Shown in pieces: positions 14,329 to 55,323 of a DNA stretch of 64,000 nucleotides (position 1 is its first letter; the number at the start of each line of letters is the position of its first letter). The stretch lies in assembly GCF_004801305.1 (NCBI RefSeq), contig NZ_SSOD01000002.1, forward strand, positions 124,001 through 188,000, given 5' to 3'. The position numbers and the translations under genes were made by a program. The notes beneath the pieces are model-generated. The model did not search any database, was not told the DNA's origin, and was given only the letters and a program-made list of their open reading frames with translations. Source of the DNA: Pseudothauera rhizosphaerae (GTDB lineage Bacteria > Pseudomonadota > Gammaproteobacteria > Burkholderiales > Rhodocyclaceae).

Positions 14329-14364
14329 GGGATTCCCTGTGCGGAAACGGAGGTCTGCGGCCCG

Positions 14365-34842: not shown

Positions 34843-34843
34843 G
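34819..34843 (+). repeat. attL: ssrA 3' end next to the integrase
   Basis: The last 25 bases of the tmRNA 3' region (GTTCGATTCC through CCACCAG) recur in degraded form at 55294-55317: 21 of 25 positions match with one single-base gap. The integrase gene starts about 165 bases further on. This is the usual layout when a tyrosine recombinase inserts into the 3' part of an RNA gene. Confidence 0.6.
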
Positions 34844-34867
34844 AAACACTTCCGAAGTAGTCCTATA

Positions 34868-34912
34868 AGGGCCGGAAAACCAAGAGAAATCAAGGTTTCC
34901 GGCCTTTTTCTT
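34868..34912 (+). terminator. Terminator supplied by the element after ssrA
   Basis: Inverted repeat GGCCGGAAAACC / GGTTTCCGGCC (one bulged A) with a 12-base loop and a TTTTTCTTT tail, 26 bases after ssrA. It now ends the tmRNA transcript; the displaced host terminator appears to be at 55324. Confidence 0.8.
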
Positions 34913-34954
34913 TGCCTATGTGTTCCTACGAGTACCGTTGCAAGCCGGCCGGAA

Positions 34955-35007
34955 GTGGGGGCAACATATGGGGCAACTCAGTTGCCCCCGCAGGACTTGC
35001 CCCCAAA
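34955..35007. repeat. Left-end cluster of TTGCCCCC sites (candidate integrase arm sites)
   Basis: Four copies of a GTTGCCCCC-type 10-12-mer lie within 53 bases: inverted at 34955-34965 and 34967-34978, direct at 34980-34991 and 34995-35007. The last runs into the integrase ATG. The same word occurs twice at the right end (55219-55243) and is not obvious elsewhere in the element. This fits arm-type binding sites for a tyrosine integrase and possible autoregulation. Confidence 0.55.
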
Positions 35008-36227
35008 TGGCCCTGACCGACACCGCTATCCGTGCTGCCAAGCCCGCCGAGAAGCCCGTCAAGCTGTTCGACGAGAAGGGCTTGTATCTCGAACTCTCCC
35101 CTGCTGGGGGCAAGTGGTGGCGGCTCAAGTACCGCTTCGGGGGCAAGGAGAAGCGGATCAGCCTCGGGACCTACCCGGACGTCGGCCTGAAGCAGGCCCG
35201 CGAACGCCGCGACGAAGCCCGTAAGCTCCTCGCCGACGGGATCGATCCAGGCGAGCACCGCAAGGCGCAGAAAGCGGCCGGCGAGGAGCGCGCCGCCAAC
35301 TCGTTCGAGGTCGTAGCGCGGGAGTGGTACGCCAAGATGGCCGCGACGTGGGTGCCGTCGCACGGCGAGAAAATCATCCGGCGCCTGGAGCGCGACATTT
35401 TCCCGTGGCTCGGCCGCAAGCCGGTTGGCGATATCGGTTCGCCTGAACTGCTTGCCACCATCCGCAAGATCGAGGACCGCGGCCGGCTGGAGACCGCACA
35501 CCGCGCCCTGCAGAACTGCAGCCAGGTGTTCCGCTACGCCATTGCCACCGGCCGGGCCGAGCGAGATCCAGCCGCGGACCTTCGCGGCGCCCTGCCTCCG
35601 GTGCGCGAGACCCACTTCGCTGCCATCACCGACCCCAAGGAAGTAGCCGGGCTTCTCCGGGCGATCGATGGATTCACCGGCACGTTCATCGTGAAGGCGG
35701 CACTCCAGCTCTCCCCGTTGGTCTTCGTGCGCCCCGGCGAGCTGCGCCGCGCCCGGTGGGAGAGCATCGACCTCGATGCCGGCGAGTGGCGCTATTTCGT
35801 GACCAAGACAGCAAGCGACCACCTGGTGCCGCTCTCCACCCAGGCGGTGGCGATCCTGCGCGAGTTGCAGCCGCTCACCGGCCGCAACCAGTGGGTATTT
35901 CCCGGCATGCGCGACCACCAGAAGCCCATGAGCGAAGCCGCCATCAACGCCGCGCTGCGCCGCATGGGCTACGACACCAAGGCCGAGATGACCGGCCACG
36001 GCTTTCGTGCGATGGCCAGGACGATCCTGCACGAAGAACTCGGGTTCGACCCCGCGGTGATCGAGCACCAGCTCGCGCACCAGGTACCGGACGCGCTGGG
36101 CACGGCCTACAACCGGACGAAGTTCATCAAGGAGCGCCGGCAGATGATGCAACGCTGGGCGGACTACCTGGACAAGCTCAAGGCTGGGGCGGATGTGATC
36201 GAGATGCCGACCAAGGGTGCGGCGTGA
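35007..36227 (+). CDS. int: P4-type tyrosine integrase
   Basis: A 406-residue site-specific recombinase. N-terminal DUF4102 arm-binding domain: MALTDTAIRAAKPAEKPVKL and LGTYPDVGLKQARERRDEAR. SAM-like core-binding domain in the middle. The catalytic domain has Arg 242 (FVRPGELRRARW), His 331/Arg 334 (HGFRAMAR) and nucleophile Tyr 368 (GTAYNRT). The ATG at 35007 follows an upstream repeat cluster and gives the canonical start; the frame opens 29 codons earlier without similarity. It has everything needed for integration into ssrA. Confidence 0.95.
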   Translation: MALTDTAIRAAKPAEKPVKLFDEKGLYLELSPAGGKWWRLKYRFGGKEKRISLGTYPDVGLKQARERRDEARKLLADGIDPGEHRKAQKAAGEERAANSFEVVAREWYAKMAATWVPSHGEKIIRRLERDIFPWLGRKPVGDIGSPELLATIRKIEDRGRLETAHRALQNCSQVFRYAIATGRAERDPAADLRGALPPVRETHFAAITDPKEVAGLLRAIDGFTGTFIVKAALQLSPLVFVRPGELRRARWESIDLDAGEWRYFVTKTASDHLVPLSTQAVAILRELQPLTGRNQWVFPGMRDHQKPMSEAAINAALRRMGYDTKAEMTGHGFRAMARTILHEELGFDPAVIEHQLAHQVPDALGTAYNRTKFIKERRQMMQRWADYLDKLKAGADVIEMPTKGAA

Positions 36228-36619
36228 CGACCTGAGAAAACCTGAGTTCTGCCGCGCCTACTCCGGGGGAGGGAAACCGAGTTCCCTATCTTGGCGAGCA
36301 CAGGAATAGGGCGTTGATCTTGTCGAAAACCGGATCAGCGCCGGCATAAAACGCTTTTTCCATTCATTCAAACAGTACCTTATGGCCTCCCCCCCCTGTA
36401 GGTCTAATTCCACCGGAAATCGTCATCAAAACAGCAACCGTCAAACTAAATTAACATTGAAATTCAGTATCATATGATTCGGCTGCGATTGGCAAAAAGC
36501 CACCGAGATCCAACTACCCCCCCCCTGTAGGGCTACACCTGTCTGATCGGACGTACCGAGAATTGCCATGTGTTCCGACGAAAGCCGGAGCGCTTCTCCT
36601 CAAACAAAGGAAAGCAAAC
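36228..36619. promoter_or_regulatory. AT-rich int-alpA spacer with paired C-tract repeats
   Basis: 392 bases without a convincing gene, clearly more AT-rich than its surroundings (for example 36440-36480). A direct repeat C8-TGTAGGTCTA (36389-36406) recurs as C9-TGTAGGGCTA at 36517-36535, 129 bases apart. Position before alpA and composition suggest promoters and repressor sites controlling int and alpA; no promoter can be assigned with certainty. Confidence 0.5.
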
Positions 36620-36850
36620 ATGGCCGCTCAACTTCAGACCGCCCCCACGATCCTCCGCCGCAAGCAGGTCGAACAACGGCTTTCGATCAGCCGCACCACG
36701 ATCTACAGCCGAATCAATCCGAAATCCCAGCACTACGATCCGACTTTCCCGAAGCCGATTGATCTCGGTTACCGCTCCGTCGGGTGGATCGAATCCGAGA
36801 TCGATGCCTGGATTGCATCCCGCATAGCCGCCTCCCGGGCCGCGGCCTGA
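36620..36850 (+). CDS. alpA: AlpA-family transcriptional regulator
   Basis: A 76-residue protein with an excisionase-like helix-turn-helix: ILRRKQVEQRLSISRTTIYS, then NPKSQHYDPTFPKPIDLGYR and GWIESEIDAWIASRI. AlpA proteins in P4-like satellites and PICIs activate excision or the replication module. The ATG at 36620 gives MAAQLQTAPTI; an ATG 19 codons upstream is possible but unsupported. Confidence 0.9.
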   Translation: MAAQLQTAPTILRRKQVEQRLSISRTTIYSRINPKSQHYDPTFPKPIDLGYRSVGWIESEIDAWIASRIAASRAAA

Positions 36851-36861
36851 CGGGTGCCGCG

Positions 36862-37248
36862 ATGACCGGGCAAGAAAAAGCCGTCGCGGTGGTGGCACAC
36901 CGGACGGCCCTGGATACTGCTGAAGCGACTCAGCGCCGATTCTCGTTCCCGTCGCCGGGTTCGGTCAAGGCCGGCGTGCTGGCTGACCTGCTGGACGGCC
37001 AGCGCCTCACGCACCTGACCGTCTGGACGCGGTACGGATCGAGCCGCGCCGCCCATCACGTCCTGCGCCTGCGCCAAGCCGGGTTCCCGGTGGAGACCGT
37101 CACCATCGACGCGCCCACCCATGACGGCCGGACATCCCGCATTGCCGAATACCACCTGCCGGCCAGCGTCATCAAGCAGGTGGGTGAGGATGGGCGCCGC
37201 TTCGTCAAAACCGTTCGCGTGGGGCGGATGCGCGGAGGCAGCCAATGA
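36862..37248 (+). CDS. Winged helix-turn-helix protein (phage-type)
   Basis: A 128-residue protein. The central part VKAGVLADLLDGQRLTHLTV ... WTRYGSSRAAHHVLRLRQAG ... FPVETVTIDAP resembles the helix-turn-helix domain often found in prophage proteins that set up replication. It starts 11 bases after alpA and overlaps the SSB start by four bases (ATGA), so it belongs to the replication operon. Its role is unknown. Confidence 0.65.
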   Translation: MTGQEKAVAVVAHRTALDTAEATQRRFSFPSPGSVKAGVLADLLDGQRLTHLTVWTRYGSSRAAHHVLRLRQAGFPVETVTIDAPTHDGRTSRIAEYHLPASVIKQVGEDGRRFVKTVRVGRMRGGSQ

Positions 37249-37649
37249 TCCGCGCGCTCGTCACTGGCGAGCTGTGGGCCGATCCGCAGCAGCGCACCAG
37301 CAAGAACGGCAACCCCTACGCCCTGGCGCGGCTGTCCGTGCCGATGGGCGAGGATGGCCGCGTGTCGTGTTCCGTGATTGCCTTCCAGGATGACGCCGTT
37401 GCCCGCCTGCTGCAACTGAAGGCGGGCGCATCGGTGGCCGTGGCCGGGACACTGAAGGTGGGCATCTTCACCGGCAACGACGGCACCGCCCGCCCGAGTC
37501 TGGACATGGTGGCCGACGAGGTTGCGTCGACCACGCCGAGGCCGAGAAAGCCGAAGGCCCCGCGCGCCGCACAGGACGGCGGACAGGCCGGTGGCGATCC
37601 GTTCGGCGACCTGCCAGGCGCCGGGGATCTGGACTGGATGGGGACGTGA
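37245..37649 (+). CDS. ssb: Single-stranded DNA-binding protein, divergent
   Basis: A 134-residue OB-fold protein: MIRALVTGELWADPQQRTSK, NPYALARLSVPM, SCSVIAFQDDAVARLLQLKA and VAVAGTLKVGIFTG follow SSB spacing. The tail is acidic and ends DLDWMGT instead of the DIPF tip of chromosomal SSB, so its partner binding may differ. It is translationally coupled to the upstream helix-turn-helix gene. Confidence 0.78.
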   Translation: MIRALVTGELWADPQQRTSKNGNPYALARLSVPMGEDGRVSCSVIAFQDDAVARLLQLKAGASVAVAGTLKVGIFTGNDGTARPSLDMVADEVASTTPRPRKPKAPRAAQDGGQAGGDPFGDLPGAGDLDWMGT

Positions 37650-37650
37650 C

Positions 37651-38058
37651 ATGCCGTCGGCCATCACCTTACCCAGACGCGCCACTGCGTCGCGCCGCCC
37701 GTTTCCTGCCTACGGCCGACAGATTGCGGACCTGCGCAAGCAGGGGATGCGGCCGGCCGGCGAATCCGTGTTCGTTCGGCTGGACACCTGGCCGCCTCGC
37801 AAACGGCCGGCGCATCTGAGGTTCCCGCAAGTCGTTGTATCCGACGAGGCCGAACCCGCCGCGCTGAGTTTCGCGTTCCTCGACGACTTGGATGTGCTCG
37901 TTGCGCACTGGCGCTCGAAGTCCGAGCCGCGGCGCCTGCGCGACCTGCTGCGGGAAATCCTGACCGCGAACCCGCGCCGGCTGATCGTGCTCGATGTCGA
38001 GCATGAAAAGCACTGGTGGGTGAAGTCCGTCGACCGTGGCGTGGAGGTGTCGTTGTGA
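37651..38058 (+). CDS. Unknown protein in the replication module
   Basis: A 135-residue basic protein with no motif that I recognise (MPSAITLPRRATASRRPFPA ... RLIVLDVEHEKHWWVKSVDR). It begins one base after the ssb stop and its stop overlaps the GTG start of the next gene (GTGA), so it is tied to replication by context only. Confidence 0.65.
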   Translation: MPSAITLPRRATASRRPFPAYGRQIADLRKQGMRPAGESVFVRLDTWPPRKRPAHLRFPQVVVSDEAEPAALSFAFLDDLDVLVAHWRSKSEPRRLRDLLREILTANPRRLIVLDVEHEKHWWVKSVDRGVEVSL

Positions 38059-39128
38059 CTGCTCCACGGATTGCCGCCGTCCCGGACCCCGCCCCACGTG
38101 CGCGCCGCTTCAAGCTGCTGACCGCCGCCGACCTTGCCGGCCGGCCGCGGCTGCAATGGCGCGTGAAGGGCGTACTGCCACAGACGGGCATTGCCGCCAT
38201 CATCGGGCCGAGCGGCAGCGGGAAGACCTTCCTGGCGCTGGACCTCGTTGCCGCCATCGAGCACGGCGTGTCGTGGTTCGGCTGCCGCGTGCGGTCCTGC
38301 CCGGTGGCATACCTCGCGCTGGAAGGCGAAGCCGGCATCTCGAACCGCGTCGCGGCCTACCAGGCACACACGGGGCACCGCTTTTCAGACCGTTTCCGCG
38401 TCGTCGTCGAACGCTTCGAGCTGCTGAGCACCGGCGACGTGCCCGCGCTGGCCGACACGCTGCAGGAATCGGGCGTTGCCGGTGGCGTCATCGTCCTCGA
38501 CACCCTGAACCGCGCCGCCGCCGGGGCCGACGAGAACAGTTCCTCAGACATGGGGCTGCTGATCGCAGCAGCGACCGAGCTGCAGGTTCGGACGGGCGGG
38601 CTGGTGCTGATCGTCCATCACTCCGGGAAGGATGCCACCAAGGGCGCGCGGGGACACTCCAGCCTCTTCGCCGCTCTGGATGCCTGCATCGAGGTCAGCC
38701 GCACCGACGAGCGGCGAACGTGGAAGGTTGCGAAGTCCAAGGACGGCGAGGATGGCCACAGCCGTGCATTCCTGCTGCGTGTCGTCGAGATCGGCGAGGA
38801 CGCGGATGGTGATCCCGTCACGTCCTGCGTCGTGGAGCCGGAAGAGCAGGCCGTCGAAGAGGTGCGCCGCGTCGTTCTGCCAGCCGGCGGCAATCAGCGC
38901 ATCGTGTTCGACGCCCTTCGCGATCTGCTGCGCGAAGCCAGGCACTTCGGCATGGCCGGCGCTCCCCCGACCCGCCCTTGCATCGCACTGGAAGAGGCCA
39001 TCACCAAGACTCGCGACCGGTTGGCCTGCGAGTCTGATCGTAGGACGGAGCGCACCAGAGCCGCACTCACGGGGCTGGTGAGTCGGGGGGCAATCGTGCT
39101 GCGGGAGGGCTGGATATGGCTCCCCTGA
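38055..39128 (+). CDS. RecA-like AAA ATPase, RepA-type replication helicase
   Basis: A 357-residue ATPase. Walker A is GPSGSGKT at residues 51-58; the Walker B strand is GGVIVLDTLNRAAAGADENS; a following sensor-like strand GLVLIVHHSGKDATKGARGH is typical of the plasmid RepA / DnaB-like AAA_25 group. The C-terminal part may be a winged helix (ALTGLVSRGAIVLREGWIWL). The start is a GTG at 38055 overlapping the previous stop; upstream ATG codons belong to the previous gene. It is probably the element's replication helicase. Confidence 0.8.
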   Translation: MTAPRIAAVPDPAPRARRFKLLTAADLAGRPRLQWRVKGVLPQTGIAAIIGPSGSGKTFLALDLVAAIEHGVSWFGCRVRSCPVAYLALEGEAGISNRVAAYQAHTGHRFSDRFRVVVERFELLSTGDVPALADTLQESGVAGGVIVLDTLNRAAAGADENSSSDMGLLIAAATELQVRTGGLVLIVHHSGKDATKGARGHSSLFAALDACIEVSRTDERRTWKVAKSKDGEDGHSRAFLLRVVEIGEDADGDPVTSCVVEPEEQAVEEVRRVVLPAGGNQRIVFDALRDLLREARHFGMAGAPPTRPCIALEEAITKTRDRLACESDRRTERTRAALTGLVSRGAIVLREGWIWLP

Positions 39129-39133
39129 CACCG

Positions 39134-39256: not shown

Positions 39257-39265
39257 AAGCCTTCC

Positions 39266-39442: not shown

Positions 39443-39445
39443 ACC

Positions 39446-40612
39446 ATGACCACCGCAACCTTGCTCGCAAAACCCGTGCCGCAGTCCGACAACCCGCTGC
39501 ATCGCTCCCTCTTCTCGCTGCCGCCGCTTCGCCCGAGCGAACAGACCCTGCCGGCCGTGCCGACGCTGCCCCCGAAGCAGCGCGTGACCGGCGACAAGGA
39601 AGTCGATGCCGTCCTCTGGCTGCGCGAGGTCATCGGCACCGGCGACGCCGCCCTGATCGCCCAGGCACAGGAAGCGGCGAAGAAGATCCGGACGCCGCTG
39701 AAGGAATTGGAAAATCGCTATGCAAAGCACCTGATCGATGCCAGTGGCGGTCAGCCGTTTGCTGCGCTCCCTTCCTTCGGCTTCGCCGACCTGAACGAAC
39801 TGGCCGAGCGCTCCATCAAGCGCCGGGCCTTGCAGGTCGAGGCGCAGGGCCGGTTCGGCGACACCCTCTTCGATAACACGCCTGCTGAGGTCTTCTGCAT
39901 CTCCGCATTGAAGGGGCTCGAACCGCAGGAAGACTTGTTCTACCAAATCGATCCTGTCGAAGCGGAAACCCGTTTCCGTTGGCACCCGGCCGAGATGCCG
40001 CACACCCTGGCCGACTGCCTGCATGAACTCGCGTACTGGCATGACTTGGCCGGGCTGCGCTATGCGTTCGGAACTGTGAGTGGCGATCAATTGCACGAGG
40101 TCGATGCGCGTGAATGCTTCGTGTTCAGCCTCCTCGCTGAGATTCCGCCCCGCAACCGCTCCGAGGCCCGTAGCGTTCTCGACTACCTCTATGCCGCCAG
40201 GCGAATGGACGCCATGGAAACGCGGGCAATCCTCGCCAACCTGATCGGCCGACTCCACCACCAGGAACCAGACTCCATGAGACCCGCCCGCTACGCGGAA
40301 CTCCACGAGGCCGGCCAAGGCGACACCGCCGAAGCGCGTGCGCTGCTTTCCGCCGCGATGCGCTATGCACCACCCGAGTTCCTGGAGATGGCCAGACGAG
40401 AAGCGCGAGCACTTGGCCTGTTGCCCGAGCCAGACGGCTACCTGGCCGACGGCACGCGCGCTTACTCCGTCGCCACCGTGGCCGCACATCTCGGCGTCAC
40501 CGAGGCGGAAGTCATCGAGGGCATCGACCAACTGAGCCTGGAACAGGAAGCGCTCGGCCTTCCCGTCGAAGAGCTTTTCGTCCCTGCAGACGCCGTGCAT
40601 GGGGCGCATTGA
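39446..40612 (+). CDS. Unknown 388-residue element protein
   Basis: No recognised domain. The N-terminal 50 residues are Pro-rich (LFSLPPLRPSEQTLPAVPTL), the middle is mostly helical, and the C-terminus has a helix-turn-helix-like stretch (YSVATVAAHLGVTEAEVIEG). It could bind DNA or act as a scaffold. It starts directly after the 58-residue gene and precedes the coiled-coil gene by 37 bases. Composition matches its neighbours. Confidence 0.72.
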   Translation: MTTATLLAKPVPQSDNPLHRSLFSLPPLRPSEQTLPAVPTLPPKQRVTGDKEVDAVLWLREVIGTGDAALIAQAQEAAKKIRTPLKELENRYAKHLIDASGGQPFAALPSFGFADLNELAERSIKRRALQVEAQGRFGDTLFDNTPAEVFCISALKGLEPQEDLFYQIDPVEAETRFRWHPAEMPHTLADCLHELAYWHDLAGLRYAFGTVSGDQLHEVDARECFVFSLLAEIPPRNRSEARSVLDYLYAARRMDAMETRAILANLIGRLHHQEPDSMRPARYAELHEAGQGDTAEARALLSAAMRYAPPEFLEMARREARALGLLPEPDGYLADGTRAYSVATVAAHLGVTEAEVIEGIDQLSLEQEALGLPVEELFVPADAVHGAH

Positions 40613-40649
40613 CGTCTTGCCATAACCACCATCCACCGAGGAACTGACC

Positions 40650-41222
40650 ATGACCATCCGATCCGCAGTTGTGAGCAATGACAGAAGAACGAACGAAGAA
40701 CCCCGTTATGCCGGGTCTACCGTCAGCAAGACGGGATACCAAATGATGATCGAGCGCCAGGAAGCCAATGCGGAGCAGATCGCGAGAGCGCGCCGCGCCG
40801 CGGAACTGCCTGATTCGCTCTTCGTGGACCATCCGGAAGTGCAGCGACTGCAGGCACTGGTCGCCCAGCGCGAGAACCGGGTGCGCCTGATGAACGATGG
40901 ACAGCAAGTGCTGCTCATCAGGGGGCGGATTGAGGCCTTGAGGGCGAAGCTCCAGCAGAAGCAGGATGAGATCGAAGGCGCGGCGCTCGACGATGCCTTC
41001 GACGAATCCCAAGCCTACGAACGCTCCTACGCGCTCTCGGAAGACATCCGCCGGCTCGAACTCTCCATCAAGTCCGCCGAGCTTGCGCACAAGGTGCTGA
41101 CAACGAACACCATGGCGCCGAGGCAATCCGAACTGCTGCGGGCAGAGAGGAATCAACTTGCCTCCCTGCTCAAGATGCTGAAGCTCGAACACCTGGATGG
41201 CGAAAACGGGGTAACGCCGTGA
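40650..41222 (+). CDS. Unknown coiled-coil protein
   Basis: 190 residues, highly charged. Long predicted helices with heptad-like spacing: IRGRIEALRAKLQQKQDEIE, YALSEDIRRLELSIKSAELA and RAERNQLASLLKMLKLEHLD. Probably an extended coiled coil. The stop overlaps the next GTG start by four bases. Confidence 0.7.
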   Translation: MTIRSAVVSNDRRTNEEPRYAGSTVSKTGYQMMIERQEANAEQIARARRAAELPDSLFVDHPEVQRLQALVAQRENRVRLMNDGQQVLLIRGRIEALRAKLQQKQDEIEGAALDDAFDESQAYERSYALSEDIRRLELSIKSAELAHKVLTTNTMAPRQSELLRAERNQLASLLKMLKLEHLDGENGVTP

Positions 41223-41806
41223 GATCGATCAGCGACGAGGCCAACATCCTGTTGAACGCCGCGCTGACTCAAGCAGCCGATGCAAACGCCCGTGATTTCG
41301 TCGGCAGCATTCTGCTGTGTGCCTCGACAGGGGGTTTCCGCCGCAAGCGCGCGTTGCTGAAGGCCGTCGAGAACACGCGAGAACTGGCTCAGGCGGCCGT
41401 CAGCGCTGTGACTGCCGAGACCTTCGCCCTCTTCTGCGGTGAGCGCGTCCGAAATGCGGACGCGGAGACAGCTTGCATTTCCACCCGTCGGGCGGATGGG
41501 GCTGGCGTTTCTGCCGCCACCGAAGCCGAGCAGACGATCATCGGAGATTCGTTCGCCAGCATGATCGATTTCGTCCTCTCAGAAATGGAGGCGAAGGACA
41601 TCCGCTACTGCGACCAGGAAATCGCAAGAGCGCTGGCTGTCTTCGAAGAGCAAGGATTGCTCCAAGGCCCGATCCGCATGCTTTGCGCACGTGTCATCGC
41701 CGAGATTTCCTTCCGCATCGAAGAGTATGGGTTCGCCCTGGAGCGCATCGAGGCCATCCGCACTGGCGTCGACAACAATCCTCAACACGGCAATCCGGAG
41801 GAGTGA
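41219..41806 (+). CDS. Unknown helical protein with GTG start
   Basis: 195 residues, no recognised motif. Starts at a GTG that overlaps the previous stop (GTGA), so translation is probably coupled. Sequence is mainly amphipathic helix (LLNAALTQAADANARDFVGS ... MLCARVIAEISFRIEEYGFA). Four bases separate it from the next gene. Confidence 0.68.
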   Translation: MRSISDEANILLNAALTQAADANARDFVGSILLCASTGGFRRKRALLKAVENTRELAQAAVSAVTAETFALFCGERVRNADAETACISTRRADGAGVSAATEAEQTIIGDSFASMIDFVLSEMEAKDIRYCDQEIARALAVFEEQGLLQGPIRMLCARVIAEISFRIEEYGFALERIEAIRTGVDNNPQHGNPEE

Positions 41807-41810
41807 GCCC

Positions 41811-42335
41811 ATGGCCTACGCGGTAAAGCACGCCCGGAAGTCCACCGCCCACATCGTTCTGGAAGCGGTACAGGACCTGCATGCGAAGGAGCAGATCGTC
41901 ACGCGCGAGACCCTGGCCGAAGTCACGGGAATGAAGCTGGTGGTCATTGATGACCGACTGTCTTACCTGACCGACAACGGCAATGTCCGCCGGGTGCAGC
42001 GCGGCGTCTACGTGCCGGTGGAGCAGCACAAGCCAGCCAGGCTCATCACGCGAACTCTTCTGCCGGACGGTACGACGGTGCTGGAGATCGGAGACGAGAC
42101 GGCGCTCGTTCTCACCCCGCGCGAGGCGCGAATGGTCGGCGAGCTGATGGTCGGGTCGGCGCAGCAATACGCTGCCATCCAGATCGGGCAAGAGGTGGAG
42201 CGCCAAAACAACGCTCTTCGCACACGCATCTCCGAACTGCGCCGGGGGGTGGATCAACTGATAGGCGGCAATCCCGGTGTAGGGCTGGATTGCCAATTCC
42301 GTGCGGCCGACGATGCGTCATCCGACGAAAACTGA
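41811..42335 (+). CDS. Winged-helix protein, probable DNA-binding
   Basis: 174 residues. The N-terminal 65 residues look like a winged helix (TAHIVLEAVQDLHAKEQIVT, RETLAEVTGMKLVVIDDRLS, YLTDNGNVRRVQRGVYVPV), similar in pattern to the AbiEi-type N-terminal domain. The C-terminal half contains a helix (GQEVERQNNALRTRISELRR). A regulator of the large-protein genes that follow is possible but not shown. Confidence 0.65.
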   Translation: MAYAVKHARKSTAHIVLEAVQDLHAKEQIVTRETLAEVTGMKLVVIDDRLSYLTDNGNVRRVQRGVYVPVEQHKPARLITRTLLPDGTTVLEIGDETALVLTPREARMVGELMVGSAQQYAAIQIGQEVERQNNALRTRISELRRGVDQLIGGNPGVGLDCQFRAADDASSDEN

Positions 42336-42349
42336 GAGGAGCAGCAAAC

Positions 42350-50322: not shown

Positions 50323-50340
50323 CTCTGCTGAGAAAACCAC

Positions 50341-50826
50341 ATGACACGAGAAACCAAAGCAAGGAGGGGGCGGCCTACCGCCTACCGCGAAGAGTGCGCC
50401 GAGCAGGCGCGCAAGCTCTGCCGGCTCGGCGCGACCGACGTGGAATTGGCGGACTTCTTCGAAGTGAATGCACGGACTATCAACCGTTGGAAGGCCGAGC
50501 ATCAGGAATTTTGTCAGTCCCTAAAGGCGGGCAAGGCCGCCGCTGATGCCGAGGTGGCTGATCGGCTCTATCAGCGCGCCCTTGGATACTCGCATCCGGC
50601 CGTCAAGATCATGAGCATCGCCAACCAGGTGGTGCGTGAGGACTACACAGAGCACTACCCACCGGATACCACGGCGGCAATCTTCTGGCTCAAGAACCGT
50701 CGCCCAGACCTGTGGCGTGACCGCATCGACAATACGCACTCGGGTCCGAATGGTGGCCCGATTCAGGCGCGCATTACGGTTGAGTTCGTGAGGACTTCCA
50801 AGCACGAGGACAACGGCGCGATTTGA
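50341..50826 (+). CDS. terS: Small terminase subunit-like protein (TerS)
   Basis: 161 residues. N-terminal helix-turn-helix: RRGRPTAYREECAEQARKLC, GATDVELADFFEVNARTINR, followed by KAGKAAADAEVADRLYQRAL and the family motif HYPPDTTAAIFWLKNRRPDL and WRDRI. This is a common podovirus/siphovirus TerS type. TerS recognises the pac or cos site and loads the large terminase. No large terminase gene follows; instead there is a 275-base repeat-rich spacer. An orphan TerS is characteristic of PICI satellites. Confidence 0.83.
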   Translation: MTRETKARRGRPTAYREECAEQARKLCRLGATDVELADFFEVNARTINRWKAEHQEFCQSLKAGKAAADAEVADRLYQRALGYSHPAVKIMSIANQVVREDYTEHYPPDTTAAIFWLKNRRPDLWRDRIDNTHSGPNGGPIQARITVEFVRTSKHEDNGAI

Positions 50827-51101: not shown

Positions 51102-51353
51102 TCACCCGGCCAGCGCCCGCAGTACGTGTTCCGGATCGTTGTGGATGGCGCGCAGTAGCGCCTTGGCCGGGCCGGTGGGTTCGCGGCGCCCTTGCTCCCA
51201 GTTGCGCAGGAGGCCCACCTGCACATCGATCACCCTGGCAAACCGTGCCTGCGACAGCCCGGTGGCCTTGCGGATTTCCTTGACCTGCAGCGCATCGACG
51301 GCGAACTCGCGGGACGGCTGACGCTCGCCGCGGCGGATTTCGTCCATCGTCAT
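51102..51353 (-). CDS. Helix-turn-helix antitoxin-like regulator
   Basis: About 83 residues from an ATG at 51353 with a GGGGG site just upstream; a GTG at 51362 is possible. The XRE-type helix-turn-helix ALQVKEIRKATGLSQARFAR ... VGLLRNWEQGRREPTGPAKA resembles antitoxins paired with RelE-like toxins (NadS/HigA type). No second toxin gene is adjacent, so it may be an orphan or a regulator of the module upstream. It lies 12 bases after the antitoxin gene. Confidence 0.75.
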   Translation of the reverse strand: MTMDEIRRGERQPSREFAVDALQVKEIRKATGLSQARFARVIDVQVGLLRNWEQGRREPTGPAKALLRAIHNDPEHVLRALAG

Positions 51354-51365
51354 TGCCCCCACGTT

Positions 51366-51686
51366 CTACGCATGGGCGCGCTCGCCATGCACCGGCACCG
51401 CGACCAGCTTCACGCCCAGGGCCGCGCACACGCGGCTGATAGTCTCGAAACGCGGCTGGCTGGTGGGGCGCAGCGCCTTGTACAACGCCTCGCGTGTGAT
51501 GCCCGAAGCCTTGGCGATGTCGGACATGCCGCGGGCGCGCGCCACCGTGCCGAGCGCGTCGGCAAGCGCCGCGGGGTCGTTCTCTTCCAGCACGATGGTC
51601 AGGTATTCGGCGATGGCCTGTTCGTCCGGCAGATGCTCGGCCATGTCGAATTCGGGCAGTTCGGAAACCTTGATCTTCCTGGTCAT
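51366..51686 (-). CDS. Type II antitoxin, HI1420/HigA-like
   Basis: 106 residues: the N-terminal part binds the toxin (VSELPEFDMAEHLPDEQAIA, EYLTIVLEENDPAALADALG), followed by an XRE helix-turn-helix (GMSDIAKASGITREALYKAL). This is the addiction-module antidote pattern, encoded three bases after the toxin gene. It probably represses its own promoter through the palindrome at 51995-52012. Confidence 0.87.
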   Translation of the reverse strand: MTRKIKVSELPEFDMAEHLPDEQAIAEYLTIVLEENDPAALADALGTVARARGMSDIAKASGITREALYKALRPTSQPRFETISRVCAALGVKLVAVPVHGERAHA

Positions 51687-51689
51687 GGT

Positions 51690-51986
51690 TCAATCCTCCA
51701 GCTTCGCGGCCAACGTGATGGCCTTGGCAATGTCGGTGGCCTGTGTGGATTTGTCGCCACCACCCAGCATCACGATCAACACTTCGCCGCGCTGCACGTA
51801 GTACATGCGCCAGCCCGGTCCGAAGAACTCGCGCATCTCCCACACCCCTTCGCCCACCGGCTTCACGTCGCCCAAGTTGCCGCGCTGGACCTTCTCCAGC
51901 CGCCGGGCCAGGCGTAGCCGCGTCATGCCGTCCTTGAGGCCAGACAACCATGCGGCGAATTCCGGGAGTTGGCGAATCGTGTACAT
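51690..51986 (-). CDS. Type II toxin, RelE/ParE superfamily (HI1419/HigB-like)
   Basis: 98 residues: LPEFAAWLSGLKDGMTRLRL, ARRLEKVQRGNLGDVKPVGE, GVWEMREFFGPGWRMYYVQR and LIVMLGGGDKSTQATDIAKA match the upstream-encoded toxin of the HI1419/HI1420 family, with the conserved GDKS motif near the end. Relatives of this superfamily cleave mRNA at the ribosome or poison gyrase; the activity here is inferred. The module may stabilise the element. Confidence 0.87.
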   Translation of the reverse strand: MYTIRQLPEFAAWLSGLKDGMTRLRLARRLEKVQRGNLGDVKPVGEGVWEMREFFGPGWRMYYVQRGEVLIVMLGGGDKSTQATDIAKAITLAAKLED

Positions 51987-51994
51987 GGCCGCAT

Positions 51995-52012
51995 TGTAAT
52001 CGTTCGATTACA
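51995..52012. promoter_or_regulatory. Palindromic operator before the toxin-antitoxin operon
   Basis: A perfect inverted repeat TGTAATCG-TT-CGATTACA, nine bases upstream of the toxin start codon. Length and place suit autorepression by the antitoxin. Confidence 0.65.
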
Positions 52013-52202
52013 TCAGTCAAGGCCGTACTTGCGACGACTCTCTGGTGATGGATCACCGCTGCGCCGGCCAGCGGTCAAGGGCCTATCTGCGGCTCATGCT
52101 GTCGCAGGGCATCGAACCATTGCGGAGGCATTGCGAACACCTGTGTCCACCCCGCGTACCTTGGTCGCCATTGCGACGACCGAGGATCACGCCATGCCAG
52201 AC

Positions 52203-52544
52203 CTACCGATCACCACCAGCAGAAGCCTCGCGCTGCAGCGCCAGCAACTCCGCTTCGAGCTGCCGCACCGTGCGGATCAGACCCTGCACTCGCGCGCTGG
52301 GTCCGGCTGCCTGACCGCCCTCATAGGCCGGCACCTCCTCCGCTACTTGGCTGCCCACCACGGGCACCAGAAGGCCGGCCGCTTCCAGCCTGAAGGACTG
52401 CTCCAGGCGGAAGACGATTTCGGCGTTCAGCGAGCGGCCGGCCGCTTCGGCTGCGGTTTTCAGGCGGTCGCGCATCCCGCCGGGGAAACGGACGATGTAC
52501 TTGTCGGCGTGACGCGACTCGGAATCTTGGGGCTTTCTGCTCAT
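52203..52544 (-). CDS. Arc-type ribbon-helix-helix repressor (long form)
   Basis: 113 residues from the ATG at 52544 (MSRKPQDSESRHADKYIVRF); an ATG at 52571 falls inside the operator and is less likely. The Arc/Mnt fold is clear: KYIVRFPGGMRDRLKTAAEA, GRSLNAEIVFRLEQSFRLEA. The C-terminal tail contains a helix (QGLIRTVRQLEAELLALQRE) that may add tetramerisation. It is divergent from a second Arc-type gene. Confidence 0.85.
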   Translation of the reverse strand: MSRKPQDSESRHADKYIVRFPGGMRDRLKTAAEAAGRSLNAEIVFRLEQSFRLEAAGLLVPVVGSQVAEEVPAYEGGQAAGPSARVQGLIRTVRQLEAELLALQREASAGGDR

Positions 52545-52557
52545 GTGCGGATTCTGC

Positions 52558-52657
52558 TGGCCTGATGCCATAAAAACAATTGATGGCCTCAGGCCATATT
52601 TTGCCTTGGCGGATCATGGCCTGAGGCCATATCGTTAATCGCATGGCGATAGGCCAT
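52558..52657. promoter_or_regulatory. Four palindromic operators between divergent Arc genes
   Basis: TGGCCTGATGCCA (52558-52570), ATGGCCTCAGGCCAT (52583-52597), ATGGCCTGAGGCCAT (52616-52630) and ATGGCGATAGGCCAT (52643-52657). The second and third are perfect palindromes apart from the central base. Centres are spaced about 26, 33 and 27 bases. They lie between and overlap the promoter area of both Arc-type genes, so both probably compete for them. Confidence 0.75.
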
Positions 52658-52675
52658 GCACAAGGAGAAGCACGA

Positions 52676-52864
52676 ATGAGCACACGCAATGAAGACAAGT
52701 ACATCTTGCGGTTCGAACAGCCCGGCCACCGCGACCGGCTCAAGGAACTGGCAGCGCGCGAGAAGCGCAGCCTGAACAAACAGATCCTGGTGCTGATCGA
52801 TGCCGGCGAAGCGGCGATGTACCCGGCGCACGGCGGCACCACCAACGCGAACAAGGAGGCATGA
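52676..52864 (+). CDS. Arc-type ribbon-helix-helix repressor (short form)
   Basis: 62 residues: EDKYILRFEQPGHRDRLKEL and EKRSLNKQILVLIDAGEAAM give the Arc fold with no C-terminal extension. The ATG at 52676 has AAGGAG upstream. It is divergent from the 113-residue Arc protein and heads the operon of small genes; its stop overlaps the next ATG by four bases. Confidence 0.83.
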   Translation: MSTRNEDKYILRFEQPGHRDRLKELAAREKRSLNKQILVLIDAGEAAMYPAHGGTTNANKEA

Positions 52865-53268
52865 CCATGGCACGCACCACACAAGGCGCGACCGCGCCCA
52901 GCACCGCCAAGAAGCCAACGCCCGTCGAGGTATCTGGCGACCGTATCCGCAACCTGACGGATGCCATCAACAACATGGATAGCGCGGCGCATCACGGGCT
53001 TTCCGAAATCTCGGCCATTGCCAGGCTCACCTTGGCGGCGATGGAGACGCCGCACCCCTATACCTTTCCTGAATTGATCGCCCAAGCGCTACGCGCCATT
53101 TGGGAGAAAGCCGACGACATCCGGGGAATCATCGGCTGCGAGGCCGAGGATGTCGGCTGCGAGAACCAGGACGAGGCCTCAGATCGTCGCCTAGATGCGC
53201 ACTGCCTTCCCAAACGGATTGAAGCCTTGCCCGTTGCCCATGCCGCTTCAGAAGGGGGTGCAGCATGA
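52861..53268 (+). CDS. Unknown small protein in the Arc operon
   Basis: 135 residues (ATG 52861; an ATG two codons later is equally good). Helical middle part (ISAIARLTLAAMETPHPYTF, LIAQALRAIWEKADDIRGII) with three Cys in the following region. The start overlaps the Arc stop and its own stop overlaps the next start (ATGA both times). Not recognised. Confidence 0.65.
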   Translation: MTMARTTQGATAPSTAKKPTPVEVSGDRIRNLTDAINNMDSAAHHGLSEISAIARLTLAAMETPHPYTFPELIAQALRAIWEKADDIRGIIGCEAEDVGCENQDEASDRRLDAHCLPKRIEALPVAHAASEGGAA

Positions 53269-53498
53269 AGGCTACCGCACAGCAACGCACCGCCGCCGAG
53301 GACGACATGGATCAAGTCGACCCCGCGCTCGGCCACGCCAACGCCATCCTTGATCTGATCTTCACTCTCGCCAGTACCGGGGACATCGAAGGGCTTTGCG
53401 ATTCCACTCTGAGCACGGCCACCGGCTTTGCCATGGAACTGATCGAAGGGGCGCGCACGGCCCTTGACGCGGAGCGCGCCGCTCAGGGGAGGGCTTGA
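53265..53498 (+). CDS. Unknown small acidic protein
   Basis: 77 residues: AEDDMDQVDPALGHANAILD and LIFTLASTGDIEGLCDSTLS then TATGFAMELIEGARTALDAE. The last part resembles the phage small-protein pattern also seen in the 98-residue gene at 54526 (helix pairs in a short acidic chain). Function unknown; coupled by ATGA overlap to the gene before it. Confidence 0.62.
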   Translation: MKATAQQRTAAEDDMDQVDPALGHANAILDLIFTLASTGDIEGLCDSTLSTATGFAMELIEGARTALDAERAAQGRA

Positions 53499-53500
53499 GC

Positions 53501-53839
53501 ATGAGCACGATGCAGAACGTGATGATGAACCTGTTCGAGCACGCGAAGCGCAGCATGGACGACGCAGACATGAAAGAGGTTGCGAACCTCACCGACTCGG
53601 CGGCCGACGAAGCGCGCCGCCTTGCTGCCATCTGCGAAAGCCTTGGGTGCCTGATCTCCTCAGACGGCGACAACAGTCCCATGGCGGGTAGCTTCCGGGA
53701 TTCAGACGAGGTATCCGGGCTGTTGTGGGCTTTGGGGCATTCGTTCGACACCATCGCGGCAATGGTTGAAGTGGGTGACGAAGCGACCTTCCACTTGAAC
53801 GAGCTGCGGATGAAGAAAGCGTCGGAGGGCCAGGCATGA
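53501..53839 (+). CDS. Unknown small protein (DUF-like, helical)
   Basis: 112 residues from the ATG at 53501 (a TTG at 53495 that overlaps the previous stop is an alternative). MNLFEHAKRSMDDADMKEVA, AADEARRLAAICESLGCLIS and FDTIAAMVEVGDEATFHLNE suggest a helical bundle. Its stop overlaps the next start. Not recognised. Confidence 0.62.
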   Translation: MSTMQNVMMNLFEHAKRSMDDADMKEVANLTDSAADEARRLAAICESLGCLISSDGDNSPMAGSFRDSDEVSGLLWALGHSFDTIAAMVEVGDEATFHLNELRMKKASEGQA

Positions 53840-54249
53840 GCAATGGCAACGTGATGCGCGACATCCGCAGCATGTTGGAAGCTCTCAAGCGGGATTCAAA
53901 TCTGAATCCTTTTTGTAAAACAACAACCTACATTGGCGAGAACGGTCAGGAGTACGAGCAGTACGAACTCGACAAGGACACGTGCCTTACCCTGCTGTTG
54001 GGCTATGAACCCGTGGCGCGCATGAAAGTGGTCAAGCGTTGGCAGGAACTCGAAGCCAAGGCCGCGCCGGCCCAACTCGCCGAAGGGTTTGCCAACATCG
54101 AGCCCGAAGCCTTCTCCGAACTGCTCGATTGTTTCGACGACTTCAAGCACCACTGCCAGGCCGGGATGGAACTGGCCGACTGCGCCACGGCCCGCCTGCT
54201 GGCCGTTGGCATGTACATCGCAAACCTCCACGAAGGAGAAACAGCATGA
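53836..54249 (+). CDS. Rha-family phage regulatory protein
   Basis: 137 residues. The block YIGENGQEYEQYELDKDTCL, TLLLGYEPVARMKVVKRWQE matches the core of phage Rha regulators, which affect phage growth in hosts lacking IHF. The N-terminal part of a full Rha is shortened: only about 30 residues precede the core. The C-terminus (LDCFDDFKHHCQAGMELADC) is specific. The host encodes both IHF subunits in this window. Confidence 0.68.
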   Translation: MSNGNVMRDIRSMLEALKRDSNLNPFCKTTTYIGENGQEYEQYELDKDTCLTLLLGYEPVARMKVVKRWQELEAKAAPAQLAEGFANIEPEAFSELLDCFDDFKHHCQAGMELADCATARLLAVGMYIANLHEGETA

Positions 54250-54326
54250 ACGCCCTGATCCCCACGGCCCGCCTGCTCTGGCCGTCGGTGACCCAACACG
54301 CCAAACAACAGGAGGTGAAGCCGTGA
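54246..54326 (+). CDS. 26-residue small protein
   Basis: MNALIPTARLLWPSVTQHAK plus six residues. Supported only by arrangement: its ATG overlaps the previous stop (ATGA) and its stop overlaps the next GTG (GTGA), the same coupling used by all neighbours, and AAGGAG lies upstream. It could be a coupling leader rather than a functional peptide. Confidence 0.45.
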   Translation: MNALIPTARLLWPSVTQHAKQQEVKP

Positions 54327-54526
54327 TCCAAGCGAACGACGAAAGCATCTTCCGCGCGATGTGCCAGCTTGAAGGCCTGCTCGAACTCATGGTTGTAGCC
54401 TCGGCCGAAGTTCATCTCGGTGTCCATGAGAGCGTGACAGCCGATTGCACCGAACTGTGTCTGAGCCTCGCCAGGGAAATCAGCGAGAAGTATGGGAGCG
54501 TGCACAACCTTGAGAGGACGAAGTGA
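54323..54526 (+). CDS. Unknown 67-residue protein with GTG start
   Basis: Starts at the GTG overlapping the preceding stop, with GGAGG ten bases upstream. Sequence QANDESIFRAMCQLEGLLEL and ESVTADCTELCLSLAREISE is helical and acidic. The same frame is open further upstream only as a shadow of the Rha-like gene. Not recognised. Confidence 0.55.
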   Translation: MIQANDESIFRAMCQLEGLLELMVVASAEVHLGVHESVTADCTELCLSLAREISEKYGSVHNLERTK

Positions 54527-54822
54527 TGAGCCAAGAACAGAAAGGCACCGACCTGGAAGAGCGCGACGGCGTCGTGACCATGTCCAAGGGGCGGCAGCTC
54601 GTGGCGCTGGAAGCAGCGTGGGAGATCGAAGCGTTGTGCAACACGCTGCGTAATGCCGTGGCCCCGAACGATGACATGGAGCACCTTGTCGTGCGCGGCC
54701 TGGCGTTGCGCATCAGGGAGCTGGCAAGGGCCGCGATGAGCGCTACCGGCGACGAAGTGAGCCGCACGCGGGACATTGCAAGGCGTGTCGGATGCGACGA
54801 CGCGGAGGAAGCCCCCGCCTGA
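54526..54822 (+). CDS. Unknown 98-residue acidic helical protein
   Basis: Starts at ATG 54526 (a GTG one codon earlier overlaps the previous stop). VALEAAWEIEALCNTLRNAV and DMEHLVVRGLALRIRELARA give a helix pair that recalls a phage small-protein pattern. It is the last gene of the plus-strand operon and is followed by a terminator. Confidence 0.62.
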   Translation: MSQEQKGTDLEERDGVVTMSKGRQLVALEAAWEIEALCNTLRNAVAPNDDMEHLVVRGLALRIRELARAAMSATGDEVSRTRDIARRVGCDDAEEAPA

Positions 54823-54855
54823 CACCGAGCAACAGGCCAGCACCACCAGCACCAG

Positions 54856-54882
54856 ACCCGCCCGCGTGGCGGGTTTTCTTTT
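54856..54882 (+). terminator. Rho-independent terminator of the Arc operon
   Basis: Stem ACCCGCC / GGCGGGT with a CGCGT loop and TTTTCTTTT tail, 34 bases after the last small gene. Confidence 0.85.
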
Positions 54883-55293
54883 GGGCGCCTGTCGAGCAGC
54901 AACAGGCCGCCCCATTCTCCCGCAACAGCAAGGTTTCTTAGCCAACCTGCTGCCTACCAGCAGGCCACCCTGCCACCTCTGGCGCCTCTGGCGCCTCTGT
55001 GAGGTGGTGAAACGTCACCCCATCTCTGCACATCCCCGATAATTTCGGGTTGGTCGCGGCGGGGAAGCCGTTTCTGGAAGGACGTCCGGTTGCAGGCCAT
55101 GCAGGAGCGCGGAGGAGCAAACCGCCAAATCGGCGGTTTGGGTTTCCAGAGAGATTCGGGGAAGCTGCGACCGACAGCCTGCAGGCCAAGTGAAGACAGC
55201 AGGGTGTCATCATGTGAGCTTGGGGGCAACTTTGGGGGCAACTATCAGAACGGCAGTTGTGAATTCCTTGCTATTAAAGGTGATATCGAGATA
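54883..55293. other. Gene-free right end of the element
   Basis: About 410 bases where every open frame looks spurious. It holds a tandem of TGGCGCCTC (around 54978-54997), a palindrome CCCGA-N5-TCGGG at 55035-55049 that is a third copy of the pair flanking the terS spacer (16-base match with one difference to the first), a perfect 9-bp hairpin CAAACCGCC/GGCGGTTTG at 55118-55140, and the right-end integrase-type repeats. Confidence 0.5.
55219..55243. repeat. Right-end TTGGGGGCAACT repeats (candidate integrase arm sites)
   Basis: Two head-to-tail copies of TTGGGGGCAACT (55220-55231 and 55232-55243), the reverse complement of the left-end word. They lie about 50 bases inside the proposed attR. 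Confidence 0.55.
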
Positions 55294-55317
55294 GTTCAAT
55301 GGCCCCCGGCCCACCAG
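55294..55317 (+). repeat. attR: degenerate copy of the ssrA 3' end
   Basis: GTTCAATGG then CCCCCGGCCCACCAG: 21 of 25 positions of 34819-34843 match with one single-base gap. The 8-base CCCCCGGC and 7-base CCACCAG blocks are exact. The terminator that follows six bases later resembles a displaced ssrA terminator. Confidence 0.55.
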
Positions 55318-55323
55318 TCACCG

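Follow-up and report, generated by a model that had tools for sequence, protein, structure and literature searches.

The element and its boundaries

The window analysed here, 64,000 nucleotides of a Pseudothauera rhizosphaerae contig, holds a ~20.5-kb element that adjoins the tmRNA gene ssrA; counted from where ssrA stops through the right attachment core, it measures 20,475 bp (C2:158.8–179.3 kb in the genome). Genes were called by our own script, and all calls in the element except three small ones (58, 77, and 67 aa) were compared with the Pfam or PHROGs family libraries; over the large genes the scans covered the sense strand. The element reads int-alpA-HTH-SSB-AAA_25, and further on two giant genes and TerS. 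The initial annotation had reported int, alpA, SSB, a RecA-like ATPase, and a terminase small subunit (TerS) in this order at ssrA; these ORFs are indeed open and identified, and the tmRNA is complete.

34465..34842, +: ssrA (tmRNA), intact, the integration target (ARAGORN; Rfam RF00023, 206 bits, model 1–374 of 374)
34828..34843, +: left attachment core, the ssrA 3' end CCCCCGGCTCCACCAG (sequence, compared with the right end)
55303..55317, +: right attachment core CCCCCGGCCCACCAG (comparison with the ssrA 3' end; shuffle test)
55323..55352, +: intrinsic-terminator-like hairpin outside the right att (computed from sequence; putative role)

The right core is the ssrA 3' end minus one base, an imperfect att repeat. 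Allowing up to one mismatch, it has a single match in the whole window and 0 in 100 shuffles. In L129, a related ssrA element of another genome, the far end also seems to repeat the ssrA end imperfectly, and related integrases lie at ssrA in G040, G008, and G011. An empty site was not found in the 20 kb 3' of ssrA in four congeners (G001, G002, G003, and G005), where GGDEF matches (31%–43%) alone were seen, in three of the four genomes; a search with right-flank DNA likewise gave scattered GGDEF-type matches and no empty site. The right boundary as placed is well supported, short of proof, and the hairpin outside it is presumed to be the original ssrA terminator.

Integration, replication, and small genes

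35007..36227, +: tyrosine integrase with arm, central, and catalytic domains (Pfam; 68% to the L129 integrase)
36620..36850, +: AlpA-type regulator/excisionase (PF05930)
36862..37248, +: winged HTH, HTH_39 (PF14090; same Pfam domain in the Hydrogenophaga element L019)
37245..37649, +: single-strand DNA-binding protein, SSB (PF00436; dN/dS 0.22 against L136)
37651..38058, +: ORF of 135 aa with no assigned function (gene call; PHROG search without match)
38046..39128, +: RecA-like ATPase (AAA_25), matching replication helicase-primase families (Pfam, PHROGs)
39446..40612, +: g7 (phrog_6204; viral contigs share its N-terminal part, L129 and further integrative elements its C-terminal part)
40650..41222, +: g8 (37% homologue in L129)
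41219..41806, +: g9, 195 aa (no family in Pfam or PHROGs)
51102..51362, -: HTH regulator (PF01381)
51366..51686, -: HigA-type antitoxin, dnstrm_HI1420 (PF21716)
51690..51986, -: HigB/Gp49-type toxin (PF05973; phrog_3445)
52203..52571, -: Arc-like ribbon-helix-helix regulator (PF03869)
52676..52864, +: Arc-like small regulator (weak PHROG matches; scan began at 52643)
52867..53839, +: three ORFans (gene call), the last (53501–53839) with a 46% homologue in L129 (comparison)
53836..54249, +: pRha/Ant-type antirepressor domain (PF09669; phrog_63)
54233..54272, +: 40-bp stretch matching, at 95% identity, the beginning of the antirepressor gene of the C22 prophage in the same genome; opens a 26-aa ORF here
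54323..54822, +: two small ORFans (gene call)

Phage F116 encodes an integrase with 38% identity to this one. Against relatives, dN/dS is 0.16 for the integrase, 0.22 for SSB and for g10, 0.37 for TerS, and 0.35 for a segment of g12.

Giant ejection-type genes

41811..42335, +: g10, small protein with a weak AbiEi-type HTH (Pfam; phrog_8117; 63% in L129)
42350..44410, +: g11, 686 aa, ejection-type, F116 p58 homologue (phrog_11341; F116 N-terminus 33%, C22 prophage C-terminus 46%)
42862..42962, +: in-frame 101-bp patch in g11, 89% DNA identity to part of the TerS gene of the F116-like contig L097
43742..43995, +: patch in g11, DNA 84% identical to the resident C22 prophage (254 bp)
44407..50322, +: g12, 1971-aa polyvalent protein with RadC/JAB domain, LPD39, and DarB-like C-terminal region (Pfam, PHROGs, tblastn)
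44416..44582, +: ADxLFxDLAP motif, three N-terminal copies in g12 (repeat search; two more copies deeper in g12)
45852..45998, +: patch in g12, DNA 88% identical to the C22 prophage polyvalent gene (147 bp)
47017..47136, +: RadC-like JAB core (HNHPSG...PSSAD) in g12 (PF04002; 2qlc alignment)

These large genes have unbroken reading frames and lie close together, with 14 bp between g10 and g11, a 4-bp overlap of g11 and g12, and 18 bp between g12 and TerS. At the protein level the TerS-like patch of g11 is 94% identical over 33 aa. By alignment, the g10 homologue of F116 sits before TerS; p58 and p60, the latter homologous to the C-terminus of g12, close the F116 late operon, and the late genes of the C22 prophage likewise end with such proteins. 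The 686- and 1971-residue proteins had been described at the outset as being of the ejected kind, which agrees with this homology to late phage proteins, read as ejection proteins. In the podovirus JC1, mass spectrometry detected in virions the adjacent proteins gp68 and gp69, the second of them DarB-like, whose genes close the morphogenesis module (PMC9144972); they may be counterparts of g11 and g12. With a RadC domain, LPD39, and a DarB-like region beside TerS, g12 is of the same class as the polyvalent proteins (RadC, LPD domain, DarB-like part) of Iyer et al. 2017 (PMC5512222), described there as transferred or packaged with DNA; the word "satellite" has 0 occurrences in the main text there.

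An orphan TerS without virion genes

50341..50826, +: orphan terminase small subunit TerS (phrog_309; PHROGs, comparison with CUS-3)

The element TerS shares 60% identity with its phage CUS-3 counterpart and 50% with that of the C22 prophage. At E<=1e-10 this TerS type was found in 1 of 249 family genomes, and a six-sequence profile (E<=1e-12) found it in 1 of 399 genomes of the order, a sample that overlaps the first. In both cases the genome is this one, with the same two copies (element and C22).

ORF scans against Pfam and PHROGs found no TerL, portal, capsid, tail, or lysis gene in the element, and six-frame whole-genome searches with phrog_2 and phrog_38 found no TerL there; both families gave matches elsewhere in the same genome. 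The absence of these genes from 20 kb, as first annotated, is thereby upheld, and with it that of the TerL, portal, and major capsid protein of an F116-like or P22-like prophage. The only structural-type names returned were TerS, weak matches of ~40 residues at the g11 N-terminus to tape-measure families, and a weak virion-RNA-polymerase match in g12. As it has no shell of its own, the element would have to borrow helper particles.

Related elements

The closest ssrA relative, L129, has int, alpA, SSB, g8, and g10 in common with the element and lacks g11, g12, and TerS; its host genome is 82% complete, and its far end carries transposase and reverse-transcriptase pieces. L019, in Hydrogenophaga, encodes an integrase, HTH_39, primase, AlpA, 389-aa and 719-aa proteins, TerS, and a g10-like protein between perfect 52-bp att repeats. 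Its module order is that of our element, with TerS after the ejection-type genes. The 719-aa protein has a counterpart with 50% identity in the 39.5-kb viral contig L296; there the pair lies, as judged by eye, ahead of tail-fibre and lysis genes. A protein of EBPR podovirus 1 is 27% identical to the 719-aa protein. L019 has no TerL, and since the Hydrogenophaga genome has none of either family (phrog_2, phrog_38), it is without a resident helper by these tests. L058, in an Erythrobacter MAG, is flanked by repeats and encodes an integrase (32% to ours), an AlpA-like HTH, AAA_25, TerS, a 2027-aa protein, and an AbiZ-like protein, with no TerL. The 2027-aa protein has 30% homologues in phages of 40–46 kb; in phage HU1 the homologous gene comes after a "putative structural lysozyme."

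Two further elements without TerL, whose integrases and sites differ, thus also combine an orphan TerS with a giant ejection-type protein. The searches, which included the 249 family and 399 order genomes, found no true sister carrying this g11-g12-TerS set.

Remnant, island, or satellite

One explanation is that a complete podovirus prophage at ssrA lost everything from TerL through the tail and lysis genes, leaving the integration, replication, and ejection genes and TerS. All three of g10, g11, and g12 are phage genes of F116 type, the missing F116 block (TerS to p57) would lie between g10 and g11, and g11 homologues lie in a complete F116-like prophage of another genome of the family (G047). 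The 101-bp TerS patch of g11 might be a scar; together with the dN/dS of 0.61 for the g11 segment aligned to C22, it could mean mosaic decay, and the 40-bp antirepressor start persists as a 26-aa ORF. However, the element has its TerS behind g12, while F116 and the C22 prophage have theirs ahead of TerL and the ejection genes, so deletion alone cannot yield the order seen. The large ORFs are also intact, and L129 has the int-alpA-SSB module with g8 and g10 at ssrA without this block. Homologues of g10, g11, and g12 do occur in F116, C22, and G047, the complete-prophage setting that the initial annotation had named as telling against a satellite, but in another order and without this integrase and replication module. 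Because of the TerS position and the same module order, between perfect att repeats and without TerL, in L019, a simple deletion remnant is unlikely. In L058, TerS precedes the giant gene and a g11-like partner is absent, and therefore gene order is no argument against deletion there.

It is less probable still that the element is a non-transmissible phage-derived island whose TerS and polyvalent protein serve defence against, or interference with, podoviruses and not its own packaging. The AbiZ-like gene of L058 and HigBA here fit such a role, and helper interference is among the PICI features given in PMC6092414. Yet to block phages with virion-type genes that take up nearly 8 kb and have conserved domains is costly, int and alpA are kept, and both L019 and L058 are repeat-flanked.

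We consider it probable that the element is a mobile, helper-dependent satellite of F116/P22-type podoviruses that carries its own TerS and ejected polyvalent proteins; we infer satellite lifestyle, induction, packaging, and helper identity from sequence. The initial proposal of a satellite supplying its own ejected polyvalent protein is supported in its architecture, orphan TerS, and giant proteins, and amended in that both large proteins, not one, are ejection-type. The integrase and AlpA would excise the element from ssrA, and SSB and the RecA-like ATPase would replicate it. With a helper podovirus active, the element TerS, identified as such above, would recognise a pac site on satellite DNA and pass it to the helper TerL. 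Shell, portal, and tail would come from the helper, none being recognisable in the element within the limits of the scans. Inside the particle g11 and g12 would take the place of the helper's internal proteins, or be added to them, and would leave it before the satellite DNA, the RadC/JAB domain and DarB-like C-terminus of the 1971-aa protein perhaps acting as an entry or anti-defence payload.

Comparison with known systems

F116-like (Hollowayvirus) podoviruses share with the element a related integrase and homologues of g10, g11, and the g12 C-terminus, but the element lacks their TerL-to-tail block and lysis genes and has another replication module. Capsid-forming PICIs (cfPICIs) bring their own capsid and packaging genes; the element resembles them as a satellite supplying some virion genes but brings only TerS and ejection-type proteins, without capsid or TerL. 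The E. coli phage vB_EcoP_Kapi1 is, from its name, a podovirus. It is the helper of EcCIMP1, an E. coli PICI and the closest precedent: as described in PMC11773190, EcCIMP1 has int, AlpA, and replication genes and no identifiable capsid genes, and its excision and transfer require the helper. EcCIMP1 has no identifiable terminase gene there, whereas our ~20.5-kb element has an orphan TerS and a giant RadC/LPD39/DarB-like protein.

Gram-negative PICIs, as described in PMC6092414, likewise carry integrase, AlpA, replication genes, and in some cases TerS, and no capsid, portal, tail, or lysis genes. The defining features given there include a size of about 12–15 kb, absence of phage structural genes, an att site never occupied by prophages, and helper induction and transfer. 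The likeness to PICIs noted initially stands for the integrase, replication module, and AlpA master regulator in conserved order; it fails for size (20,475 bp) and for the complete lack of virion genes, since g11 and g12 are virion-type homologues. A satellite need not bring an ejection protein, because one such protein of phage 80alpha is dispensable for SaPI transfer (PMC7290940).

Scope and candidate helper

More tentatively, with somewhat less than even confidence, we suggest a recurrent, separately assembled class of podovirus satellites whose kit is a pac-recognising TerS and one or more giant ejected proteins of their own; it would span three hosts with differing integrases and replication modules. 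Known satellites redirect packaging or capsid size. Members of such a class would steal shells and also reprogram what the particle injects ahead of DNA, bringing their own entry and anti-defence apparatus, and the first step in the next cell (envelope crossing, restriction and other defences) would be controlled independently of the helper. The combination of an orphan TerS with an adjacent giant gene of podovirus ejection type, in the absence of TerL, offers a simple search rule for satellites outside present PICI criteria.

The helper is likely an F116/P22-type podovirus. The C22 prophage has a phrog_38 TerL, portal, capsid, head closure, and endolysin, and the shared DNA patches and related TerS make it, or a relative, the likely helper. 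No integrase was recognised there with the seven integrases tried, and its own activity is therefore uncertain. Packaging by another resident phage, not a podovirus, with g11 and g12 as mere cargo, is very improbable: TerL-like matches do exist at C8, weakly on C19 and C6, and broken at C2:259 kb, but F116/P22-type phages are indicated by the TerS type as well as by the ejection-type proteins, and C22, the TerL locus whose DNA was compared with that of the element, has patches in common with it. The element and the C22 prophage form a testable pair within one genome.

Organization of the Element

A complete tmRNA gene (34465-34842 in the window, G000:C2:124001-188000, where G000 is the host genome and C2 its contig) is followed by a tyrosine integrase and then, in order, by AlpA, a winged-helix protein, SSB, and a RecA-like AAA_25 ATPase. 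Next come g7, an ORF whose relatives lie in replication regions, the smaller ORFs g8, g9, and g10, two large proteins of 686 and 1971 aa (g11 and g12), and a phrog_309-family TerS. Domains or families were identified in each member of the int-alpA-SSB-RecA-like ATPase-TerS series, which bears out the order read in the initial annotation. Beyond TerS, the minus strand carries an HTH/HigBA cluster; Arc-like regulators, a pRha-type domain, and ORFans come after it, as far as position 54822. The putative ends are marked by the following features.

Candidate ends of the element (window coordinates)
ssrA 3' end: left attachment core, the sequence of the gene end
55303-55317: right attachment core, a copy of the left core minus one base
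directly beyond the right core: terminator-like hairpin

If these ends hold, the element spans 20,475 bp (34843-55317). Neither the regions 3' of ssrA in relatives nor a DNA search yielded an empty ssrA site.

PHROG and Pfam scans of the element's larger proteins (three genes of 58-77 aa and the antisense ORFs lay outside the scan) found no TerL, portal, capsid, head-closure, tail, or lysis gene, the exceptions to this blank being weak tape-measure-like matches of the g11 N-terminus and a weak virion-RNA-polymerase match of g12. Six-frame searches of the whole genome with the TerL families phrog_2 and phrog_38 gave no match in the element, and both matched other sites in the genome. The second family matters because the TerL of a prophage resident on contig C22 belongs to phrog_38 and is overlooked by phrog_2, which alone would have made a weak search. 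The absence of portal, TerL, capsid, tail, and lysis genes, first noticed by inspection, is upheld by these scans. About 80 kb off on the same contig (G000:C2:259045-260799), a sequence resembling a large terminase is interrupted by two stop codons; it is probably a decayed prophage.

Gene order, an orphan TerS, and the lack of TerL make the element resemble the phage-inducible PICI satellites, as had been proposed, but its size and its two virion-type proteins set it apart from Gram-negative PICIs as defined in PMC6092414, which are wholly free of virion genes. We have filed it as a phage satellite of a new variety, outside the PICIs. Among the open-access papers listed in the literature searches, none, judged by title or start of abstract, describes a satellite with both an orphan TerS and polyvalent or ejection proteins.

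The Giant Proteins and a Proposed Mechanism

The smaller giant protein, g11, matches phrog_11341 and the N-terminus of phage F116 p58 (33%), and its C-terminal part is 46% identical over 248 aa to the corresponding protein of the prophage in the same genome. The g12 protein has LPD39 and a RadC/JAB core; its C-terminal part matches F116 p60 (24%) and DarB-like phage proteins, the phages among the matches listed being mostly ~57-63 kb. The F116 homologues of g11 and g12 have a late position in a block that runs from TerS, TerL, and portal to p58, p59, p60, and holin. Mass spectrometry of the podovirus JC1 virion detected gp68 and its DarB-like neighbor gp69 (PMC9144972). Taken together, the homology to F116, the late position there, and the JC1 analogy lead us to read g11 and g12 as putative internal virion (ejection) proteins.

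Several giant ejection-type proteins open with short repeated acidic-aromatic motifs, of which F116 p58-p60 and an Erythrobacter MAG locus (L058) have no clear copy. The motifs could be a virion-targeting tag.

Acidic-aromatic motifs at the start of giant proteins
window 44416-44582: ADDLFADLAP-like, three copies
G000:C22:51729-58958, resident prophage: NFFDQFD, two copies
L034:8195-10897, Camelimonas locus: NVFDQF, two copies
L019:7690-9849, Hydrogenophaga element: VQWDD/VVWDE
L296:10007-12253, viral contig: AAWDE/PAWEA

We consider it quite probable that the element is a helper-dependent podovirus satellite that supplies its own TerS and ejected proteins. Int and AlpA would excise it, its TerS would direct the loading of its DNA by the TerL of a helper, and g11 and g12 would be built into helper particles and ejected together with the satellite DNA. 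An ejection protein of phage 80alpha was dispensable for SaPI transfer (PMC7290940), and a satellite's own ejection proteins may therefore be needed only with podovirus helpers.

Kinship to F116-Like Phages and the Resident Prophage

In F116, TerS is immediately preceded by a g10 homologue of 49% identity (homologues in other phages reach 60%), and a 62-kb F116-like viral contig, L097, has g10 (70%), TerS, TerL, and portal in that order. Within g11 (window 42862-42962), and in frame with it, lie 101 bp that match the TerS gene of F116-like L097 at 89% DNA identity. The TerS of the element is ~60% identical to that of CUS-3 and 50% identical to that of the C22 prophage, with weak matches to the solved terminase small subunits 3hef and 4dyc, of phage Sf6.

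The C22 prophage (span ~40 kb, with approximate ends, within 49-89 kb of its contig) encodes TerS, TerL, portal, capsid, head closure, p58- and p60-related proteins, and endolysin. Its DNA is shared with the element over 254 bp of g11 (84%), 147 bp of g12 (88%), short patches of TerS, and 40 bp at an antirepressor start (95%). There, a 26-aa ORF (window 54246-54326) begins like the C22 antirepressor (MNALIPTA) and then diverges; the antirepressor gene itself seems to have been lost from the element. The element's history includes mosaic exchange with phages of the F116 and C22 kinds. As the element is about half the prophage span, two-copy headful packaging is possible, a speculation.

In samples of 249 family genomes and 399 order genomes, TerS of this type turned up only in the element's own genome, in both copies, a co-occurrence that is one case seen after the fact and not a statistical test. 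Sisters of g11-g12-TerS were likewise not found via g12, and via g11 only L097 emerged, by a 33-aa TerS patch. Matches to g11 occur in 8 of 150 genomes and are mostly short and N-terminal, except in its own genome and G047.

A Survey of Orphan TerS Loci

We collected 304 TerS loci from four scans with 100, at least 600, 64, and at least 600 relatives, at most the best 80 of each being kept and some loci sharing a contig. TerL lies somewhere in the retrieved stretch, with adjacency not always confirmed, for 283 of them. Iterative tblastn found none for the other 21, 15 of which have at least 2.5 kb downstream. Three of these 15 (L067, L078, L083) have a Walker-A ORF after TerS, judged by eye to be TerL. 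Clean TerL-less elements are rare: two of the 12 remaining candidates, and of the 304 loci, qualify (L019 and L058). In L034, ~5 kb with reverse-oriented genes separates TerS from an ejection-type pair; L014 resembles an int and TerS remnant with an IS; and eight others (L027, L033, L055, L056, L066, L071, L072, L351) are fragmentary or of ambiguous type. The viral contig L351 (IMGVR_UViG_3300025302_000068) has at 9245-15198 two TerS-like ORFs, one recognized by eye, then a 1425-aa ORF that is tape-measure-like by eye, with no TerL in the retrieved stretch; it may be a satellite of tailed phages that brings a tail ruler of its own.

The L019 element (15.3 kb, Hydrogenophaga sp. NFH-34) is bounded at both ends by perfect 52-bp repeats of a tRNA-His end. 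It encodes an integrase with no BLAST match to that of the window, toxin-antitoxin-like genes (by eye), HTH_39, primase, AlpA, 389- and 719-aa proteins, TerS (phrog_309), and a g10-like protein (phrog_8117). Its host genome holds only one TerS of this type, and searches there for a phrog_2 or phrog_38 TerL found none. The 719-aa protein shares 50% identity with a protein of the 39.5-kb contig L296, where, by eye, the pair lies upstream of tail-fibre and lysis genes. A resemblance seen by eye between ORFan 53501-53839 and L019:14101-14448 was dropped (BLASTP E 4.0).

The L058 element encodes int, an AlpA-like HTH, AAA_25, TerS, a 2027-aa protein (phrog_9880), and an AbiZ-like abortive infection protein (12874-14055) that is probable defence cargo. 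Short repeats bracket it, at 645/16169 and 781/16096, and no TerL was found on the contig. In phage HU1 a homologue of the giant protein follows a "putative structural lysozyme." That a TerS and one or more giant ejected proteins form the kit of a recurrent class of podovirus satellites is a proposal whose chances we put just short of even.

Satellite or Deletion Remnant

It is improbable that the element is a simple deletion remnant of a podovirus prophage. Deletion within a prophage of the F116 type could bring g10 and g11 together, and p58/p60-type genes do occur in the C22 prophage, the kind of finding that the initial annotation said would favor a remnant; but TerS precedes them there, and a deletion would leave TerS before g12, whereas in the element it follows g12. 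The long reading frames are open, and dN/dS against relatives (Nei-Gojobori, at high synonymous divergence) is 0.16-0.37 for int, SSB, g10, TerS, and a segment of g12; for a segment of g11 it is 0.61. L019, also TerL-less and with perfect repeats, counts against a remnant as well. On this evidence, and less strongly on L058, the satellite reading is clearly better. In L058, TerS lies upstream of the giant gene, with no sign of a g11-like partner, which slightly lowers our confidence in the satellite reading and in a recurrent class and slightly raises the chances of a remnant. A helper-independent prophage with a hidden TerL was rejected on the six-frame phrog_2 and phrog_38 searches.

Related Integrative Elements

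At ssrA in genome G040, locus L129 shares int (68%), alpA (55%), SSB (75%), g8 (37%), g10 (63%), and one ORFan with the element, carries primase/helicase genes where the element has the ATPase, and is without g11, g12, and TerS; hence, by gene content, the ssrA chassis occurs without the hijack module. Also 3' of ssrA, L274 (G008) has this integrase type (72%), alpA (43%), and restriction-modification-like cargo by eye, with no TerS match. Small elements in G053, G199, and G166 (L132, L134, and L136) each have int, a primase-like ORF, a ~700-aa ORF, a homologue of the g7 C-terminus, and a protein of 210-216 aa; the integrases of L134 and L136 lie behind the same chromosomal gene.
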